Source: Bacillota bacterium
GTDB lineage: Bacteria > Bacillota > Limnochordia > DUMW01
Reading direction: 5' to 3'
Length of the DNA: 36,531 nt
Assembly (NCBI GenBank): GCA_012839765.1
Contig: DUMW01000011.1
Coordinates: 1-36,531 of the forward strand
Shown here: positions 30,066-31,231 of the stretch, in pieces
Layout of the letters: every line of letters starts with the position of its first letter
How positions within the stretch are numbered: position 1 is the first letter of the stretch
The notes under the pieces: model-generated
What the model saw: only the letters and a program-made list of their open reading frames with translations
The model's database searches: none
Told to the model about the DNA's origin: nothing
Translations under genes and position numbers: made by a program

Positions 30066-30139
30066 TGGGAGGTGGTGTAATGGCAACACGCGGGACTCTG
30101 GATTCCGTTATGAAGGTTCGAATCCTTCCCTCCCAGCCA
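30066..30139 (+). tRNA. tRNA-Gln(CUG)
   Basis: All arms fold. The acceptor TGGGAGG (30066-30072) pairs with CCTCCCA (30129-30135), and the anticodon stem is CGGGA/TTCCG around loop CTCTGGA, giving anticodon CUG. The T arm is GAAGG/CCTTC with loop TTCGAAT. The U1-A72 pair is typical of tRNA-Gln. CCA is encoded (30137-30139). It has its own promoter and terminator. Confidence 0.95.
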
Positions 30140-30156
30140 TTTACACGAAGTTTATC

Positions 30157-30184
30157 GCCTATGCAAGATGCATAGGCTTTTTTT
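30157..30184 (+). terminator. terminator of tRNA-Gln
   Basis: GCCTATGC (30157-30164) pairs perfectly with GCATAGGC (30170-30177) around a 5-base loop, then T7 (30178-30184). Confidence 0.95.
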
Positions 30185-30203
30185 GTACCCAAAAACGGCG
30201 CAA

Positions 30204-30694
30204 CCGAGTAGGAAGGGGCAGCTAGCCCCCGTCCGTTCACACCACCGCACGTAAGACGGCGGTTCACCAAGCTTGATGAATTTGATGGTAACCCTCGCTT
30301 AGGAACGTCGCCATCTTCTTCACGGGATGTTTTTCCGTGTTGTGCCAAAGATATGTTTGGCCCTCCACAGGTCCCACCACTTCCTCCCTGAGGTAGGCCC
30401 CATATGGGGTTTTCTGCTGACTTCTGCCGGTTCAGCCAGGCCTTCCGACCTGGGTTGCCGACATCGGCCGATGTTCCCGGCAGACCTTCCCGGGTAAGAA
30501 TACGGTCTTTCCTTCCATCCACCCGCTACAGATACTCTCAGCAGCCTTTGGTAGCCAAGGACTTCGCTTTGCTCGGCAAGTTCATCCAACTGCCGCTAGT
30601 TTGCCTCCCACTTCCTTCGGATTCCACCTCACGGTGGACACCCTTGTGTTAAGCTATGTCTACTGCTACCTTACAGTACTCGTGCCGGGCGCAC
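30204..30694 (-). mobile_element. decayed, ORF-less group IIC intron
   Basis: Read on the minus strand, the element starts GTGCGCCC at 30694, the consensus 5' end of bacterial group II introns. Domain I landmarks follow: CACCGTGAGGTGGAATCC (about 30637-30620), then CAGAAGTCAGCAG (30426-30414), which in class C introns comes just before the reverse-transcriptase ORF. That ORF is gone: only about 150 bases separate this from a shortened domain V-like hairpin (about 30241-30266), and a domain VI-like hairpin (30215-30229) and CCTACTCG 3' end follow. The 5' end lies directly behind an intrinsic terminator, the class C target. The exact 3' end is uncertain by a few bases. Identification is from remembered consensus, not a search. 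Confidence 0.8.
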
Positions 30695-30695
30695 T

Positions 30696-30724
30696 AAAAA
30701 AGCCTCGTCTTGCGACGAGGCTTT
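30696..30724 (-). terminator. terminator of the lipoprotein gene and intron insertion site
   Basis: On the minus strand, 30724-30714 pairs with 30709-30699 (11 bp) around a GCAA tetraloop, with T6 at 30701-30696. It lies 16 bases after the lipoprotein stop, and the intron 5' end begins two bases after the T-run. Confidence 0.92.
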
Positions 30725-30739
30725 ACAGCGTATTCTGTT

Positions 30740-31231
30740 TTATTCACCGATCTTCATCTTGGTGAGCTTGAGATTCCCACCGTCCTCGACAAAGCTCAAT
30801 TCGACTCGGGTGTTTGTACGATAAGTCACGGGCAGACCAGTGGGAGCTATTTCTTCTGGATCATGCCGGACATAATAAATAGTTCCGGTAATGTTCAGGT
30901 TTCCATCGGCCACAATGGTTTCGACGGGTCGAATGTTGTAGTTCTCATAAACCCAGATTTCAACTTCTTTCTTGAAGTCTTCCACAAAGGAATCGGCCTT
31001 TGCGTACACTGTCTCGTTACCGTCTTCGTCAATGACCACAAAGGGCTCTGTGATCATGTTGGCTAGCTTGTCTATGTTCCCCCGCCGGACCGCATCGTTC
31101 CAATTGCTAAGGAAATCCTTCCCCTTCTGTTCAAGGGCTAGAACCGGATGGGCTTCCTCGTCGCCACAACCGGCGAGTGCGAACAGTGAAAATACTAACA
31201 ATGATACGAGCAATAAGGCCCTAGTTTTCAT
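30740..31231 (-). CDS. lipoprotein with possible NTF2/SnoaL-like domain
   Basis: The 163-residue protein has a lipoprotein signal: MKTRA, a hydrophobic stretch and the lipobox LAGC with C22 as the lipidated residue. The mature part (KGKDFLSNWNDAVRRGNIDKLANMITEPF then VETIVADGNLNITG) looks like an NTF2/SnoaL-type alpha-beta cone found in many lipoproteins; this is a fold guess. ATG 31231 is preferred over a longer in-frame start at 31420, which would bury the lipobox at residue 85 and run through the promoter. AAAGGGG lies about 11 bases upstream. It has its own promoter and terminator. Role unknown. Confidence 0.8.
   Translation of the reverse strand: MKTRALLLVSLLVFSLFALAGCGDEEAHPVLALEQKGKDFLSNWNDAVRRGNIDKLANMITEPFVVIDEDGNETVYAKADSFVEDFKKEVEIWVYENYNIRPVETIVADGNLNITGTIYYVRHDPEEIAPTGLPVTYRTNTRVELSFVEDGGNLKLTKMKIGE

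Follow-up and report, generated by a model that had tools for sequence, protein, structure and literature searches.

The locus lies between two converging transcription units and their terminators, in a stretch of 36,531 nucleotides from a draft genome of a Bacillota bacterium (contig DUMW01000011.1; hereafter the window). A minus-strand gene for a predicted lipoprotein runs towards a plus-strand tRNA-Gln gene, and the DNA between their terminators is occupied by a decayed class C (group IIC) group II intron. The features, from the lipoprotein gene to the tRNA gene, are as follows.

30743..31231, minus strand: upstream host gene, a predicted lipoprotein of 163 aa (ORF)
30696..30724, minus strand: intrinsic terminator of the lipoprotein gene, AAAGCCTCGTC-GCAA-GACGAGGCTTTTTT, the 5' exon of the intron (fold)
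30203..30694, minus strand: decayed group IIC intron, 492 nt, GTGCGCCCGG...CCTACTCGGT (Rfam RF02001, 42.3 bits; alignment to the sibling copy C112 and to the intact intron of genome G087)
30157..30184, plus strand: terminator of the tRNA-Gln gene, beyond the 3' end of the intron (terminator prediction)
30066-30139, plus strand: tRNA-Gln gene, converging on the intron

The predicted lipoprotein has no Pfam match, and we found no homologue of it in a collection of genome contigs or in 73 genomes of the class, so that no orthologous empty site was seen in a relative. Its terminator folds into a hairpin of -18.8 kcal/mol (z -6.4 relative to shuffled sequences). A simple terminator scan of the window does not list this hairpin, because part of the T-run is counted into the stem; it is plain to see once the sequence is folded. 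The T-run ends at 30696, an A follows at 30695, and the first G of the intron is at 30694. An initial annotation, made from the sequence alone, had placed the intron right behind this terminator, and a single base indeed separates the two. The exons that abut the intron read CTTTTTTA on the 5' side and TGCGCCG on the 3' side.

Identity and boundaries of the intron

The window was searched with the Rfam covariance models of group II introns. The model RF02001 (group-II-D1D4-3) matches positions 30638-30499 with 42.3 bits (E 1.9e-5 for the whole window), above its gathering cut-off of 32 bits, and RF01998 (group-II-D1D4-1) matches positions 30457-30379 with 34.3 bits, just under its cut-off of 35 bits. 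Both matches are on the same strand and in the expected order. The domain V model (Intron_gpII, RF00029) has no match in the window even at E<=1.

The 5' end of the intron is GTGCGCC, which keeps the GTGCG of the GUGYG consensus. We placed the 3' end at 30203 because the consensus 3' end of the sibling copies in the same genome, CTACTCGAT, aligns there to CTACTCGGT; the intron ends in GT in place of AT, and its penultimate A has become a G. Both termini are still nearly intact, and the element belongs to group IIC by descent. The proposal of a minus-strand class C intron of about 490 bases within 30204-30724 is therefore upheld by the covariance search, with the ends refined to 30694..30203 on the minus strand and the remainder of that stretch including the terminator (30724-30696).

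Losses within the intron

We mapped what the intron has lost by alignment to C112, the best-preserved of its siblings, and to the intact intron of G087, a related genome, which is 1902 nt long and encodes a complete reverse transcriptase (RT) of 431 aa. The alignment reveals five losses. Each block absent from the window intron is present in C112, and most are also present in the G087 intron. The damaged features, in the 5' to 3' order of the intron, are listed here.

30665..30681, minus strand: deletion junction 1, where early domain I has lost about 29 nt, a hairpin with the conserved GUGAAAGUC (alignment)
30593..30605, minus strand: deletion junction 2, a 34-nt domain I hairpin, CCTCC...GGAGG, cut out at its base (alignment with C112, C58, C68 and C88)
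30565..30580, minus strand: EBS1 loop, EBS1 = CGAG (inferred position)
30406..30424, minus strand: deletion junction 3, about 102 nt gone between two CAGCAGA direct repeats (alignment)
30264..30315, minus strand: deletion junction 4, scar of the RT frame (comparison with C112, C26, C42 and C31)
30241..30263, minus strand: domain V remnant, an 8-bp lower helix with the CGC triad kept (fold and alignment)
30211..30234, minus strand: domain VI stem, partly broken (fold, -15.7 vs -20.6 kcal/mol in C112)

The early domain I hairpin is kept in all five introns aligned (C112 and those of G087, G044, G015 and G078), and C112 has both CAGCAGA repeats plus the sequence between them. At the RT scar, the start-proximal GATGGCGACGT runs, with a change of frame, into the final codons of the gene (...YHQIHQAW stop); these two pieces are all that is left of the RT, in agreement with the initial annotation, which had reported none. 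We considered a small in-frame peptide made from the joined ends and rejected it, the two ends being in different frames.

Domain V is 23-24 nt long, as compared with 33 nt in intact siblings. The 9 nt that are missing make up the 2-nt bulge, the upper helix and the tetraloop that closes it, so that the hairpin without an upper helix described initially is confirmed, both by its length and by the lack of an RF00029 match. Catalysis and docking both require these parts. A functional intron has some 34 nt of domain V, complete with its triad, bulge and upper helix, and the window intron falls short of this. Both the bulge and the upper stem are important for activity (PMC4496777), and this deletion alone should abolish catalysis. 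The position of EBS1 was inferred from the E. rectale structure and its geometry (PMC10190682) together with five introns of relatives, in which 3-4 of the 4 EBS1 positions match the intron's own 5' exon. In the window intron the match has become poor, unlike in a functional intron: CGAG faces the exon sequence TTTA with one Watson-Crick pair, two G-U pairs, and one mismatch.

The nearly intact ends and the position between two terminators might suggest that these 492 nt were kept for a host function, either insulating the converging terminators or giving rise to a small RNA. This is extremely improbable: the group II helices are widely broken (42.3 bits for RF02001 vs 131.6 for C112), the minus strand of the region has no promoter-like site, with such sites no commoner than in shuffles, and no other copy with the same set of deletions was found in the genome (BLAST) or in any relative searched.

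Related copies in this genome and its relatives

The source assembly is a draft of 2.56 Mb in 121 contigs, 96% complete, and its copies were compared as separate stretches. At least seven related copies or fragments occur in it (C112, C88, C58, C68, C26, C42, and C31). C112 (L018, G000:C112, minus strand, about 2490-1510) is 78-80% identical to the window intron (BLAST within the genome, E 5.9e-66 at 78%) and retains its RNA ends and domain V. Its RT is an open frame of about 120 codons in which the N- and C-terminal parts are fused without the catalytic middle. Searching the genome for full-length class C introns, as had been proposed, thus recovered related copies that share the same ends; a full-length group II RT did not turn up in the draft assembly, and the best RT matches are partial and found on C112 (model positions 3-67) and C42 (259-352) alone. 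The copies C88, C58, and C68b start right behind hairpins (z -7.4 for C88 and -8.5 for C68b), and the sequence ahead of C112 is a G+C-rich repeat that lacks a T-run and folds no more strongly than shuffles. All matches of the family lie inside contigs, away from the very ends, which fits old, diverged copies. The family is apparently extinct in this draft genome. An intact master copy could be collapsed or missing, because the genome is a draft of 121 contigs, and a different group II intron, on C102, is likewise seen in it in part.

Several other arrangements came to light in these contigs. An unrelated group II intron is seen as a 3' end alone, 43 bases into contig C102 (L025:1-125); its 43-125 position recurs with the same Rfam score in several contigs of G005, so an unassembled multi-copy intron is likely. 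On C68 (L024, minus strand, 2600-1000), there is a tandem pair of near-identical gene ends, with a different class C remnant behind each. A class C 5' half followed by a close inverted 3' half occurs both on C58 (L019:560-611) and in another genome (L090, G049:C16:5200-6300). On C42 (L022:2430-2540), a repeated unit (GTTTTGGATCTTCCTATCAGGGTTGGAAA-like, two copies seen) adjoins the RT fragment and is possibly the end of a CRISPR array.

One sibling shares the short domain V. C88 (L020, about 1003-2056) is a degraded class C copy with a domain V of 24 nt, and it sits, like the window intron, exactly behind a terminator, though a different one. Together the two could represent a sub-lineage that was still mobile with a domain V of 8-9 bp lacking bulge and upper helix. 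We searched 73 genomes of the class with a short-domain-V pattern, which gave three other matches, and a reversed control pattern matched twice. The two matches that were read, in G036 and G070, have no intron context (the third lies in G034); a wider clade was rejected, and no further confirmed 24-nt domain V was found among these 73 genomes. The rarity of the short form might speak for a single origin. Against this, apart from length the two copies have one derived substitution in common, the bases that flank the gap differ, each copy has been disabled by many further deletions of its own, and hairpins are easily deleted. Common ancestry of the two is not shown by one shared derived site. 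Independent deletions are the simpler reading, given that single site, the differing gap-side bases, and the lack of a further confirmed example. We therefore consider a mobile short-domain-V sub-lineage very unlikely, and likewise the descent of both copies from one such intron still able to insert behind terminators. If it were true, some class C introns could do without the bulge and upper helix of domain V, for instance when the RNP of another intron assists them.

In this class and phylum, class C introns are frequent: 39 of the 101 genomes searched have an RF02001 match. In G087, the domain I stretch of the intact intron has three equal-scoring places in the genome. Terminator hairpins precede the introns of G044, G015 (two), G087, and G061 (z -4.6 to -6.4). 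Some of these introns lack an ORF and keep an intact domain V. Two are behind terminators, one of 565 nt in G044 (C80, L026:1437-2001) and one of 599 nt in G015 (C53, L043, minus strand). They are 76% identical in hosts of different families, and ahead of domain V both have a conserved block that is not RT sequence (CTGAAAGTAGGTTGGAAACCGAGGA...). At contig ends in G065 there are pieces 92-98% identical to them, which indicates that the intron bodies are unassembled there. These two introns are possibly a trans-mobilised lineage. A third, of 440 nt (G078:C6, L058, minus strand), stands behind a T-run without an obvious hairpin, and its EBS1 matches the 5' exon at 4/4 positions.

Decay of the window intron

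The initial annotation had left two histories open, decay after loss of the ORF or mobilisation in trans. Under the second, the intron would have been moved by the RT of another intron, inserted already without its ORF, and then decayed. Relatives (G044, G015, and G078) do contain class C introns that lack an ORF but keep domain V intact, and bacterial ORF-less introns usually share their genome with a related RT (PMC4424553). No full-length RT was found in the draft assembly, however, and no other copy in the genome shows this ORF deletion. The window intron also keeps the last codons of its own family's RT frame, so it came from an RT-bearing ancestor. Together with the domain V deletion and a deletion set shared with no other copy, these observations do not support mobilisation in trans, which we judge very improbable, and decay is favoured.

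Most probably by far, then, a group IIC intron inserted behind the terminator, decayed by at least five deletions, and is now inert spacer DNA. The model matches, the deletions, and the siblings with the same ends support the decaying class C intron proposed at the outset. A group IIC retro-intron would have reverse-spliced into the DNA hairpin of the lipoprotein terminator, one base past the T-run. Between converging units it would seldom have been transcribed and would have been under no selection to splice, and so may have decayed, presumably neutrally. The RT reading frame, sections of domain I, the stretch bounded by the CAGCAGA repeats, and the bulge and upper helix of domain V would have gone in five or more deletions, several of which lie at hairpins or between short direct repeats; EBS1 and the 3' end would have been spoiled by substitutions. 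Once the family had lost its RT, nothing would have maintained the copies. The near-intact ends count against this scenario to a degree, as purely random decay would not demand them. Loss of the RT is only one of five deletions, so decay specifically after ORF loss cannot be placed in time. Judging from the sequence, splicing or movement cannot be expected of the window intron; having several independent disabling changes, it is probably a dead element.

Class C introns are known to insert after intrinsic terminators, and most bacterial copies are truncated or inactivated (PMC4424553, PMC8919778). Behind terminators, class C introns are rarely transcribed and do little harm (PMC8919778, PMC4424553, PMC3522654). 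Both this mode of insertion and the decay of group II introns by fragmentation are thus already known. Identification of the intron explains an otherwise odd intergenic stretch and has little value beyond annotation, apart from documenting a class C family whose other defective copies or fragments number at least seven, several of them still located behind terminators. The ORF-less introns of G044, G015, and G078 are better material for the question of whether class C introns move in trans.

The window intron resembles the terminator-inserted class C introns of bacteria in its 5' GTGCGCC, its domain I landmarks, its CTACTCRAT-like 3' end, and its place directly behind a terminator hairpin. It differs from them in lacking the RT frame, parts of domain I, and the domain V bulge and upper helix. 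Multiple deletions and the company of defective relatives in one genome are shared with fragmented group II copies (PMC3522654, PMC4496777); those are usually reported as 3'-truncated, whereas the losses here are internal and both termini persist. Like ORF-less bacterial group II introns, it has no RT and measures about 0.5 kb, but those introns keep a complete ribozyme core, as the G044 and G015 introns appear to do, and the window intron does not. Among the relics of this well-known kind of mobile intron, it is an ordinary one.
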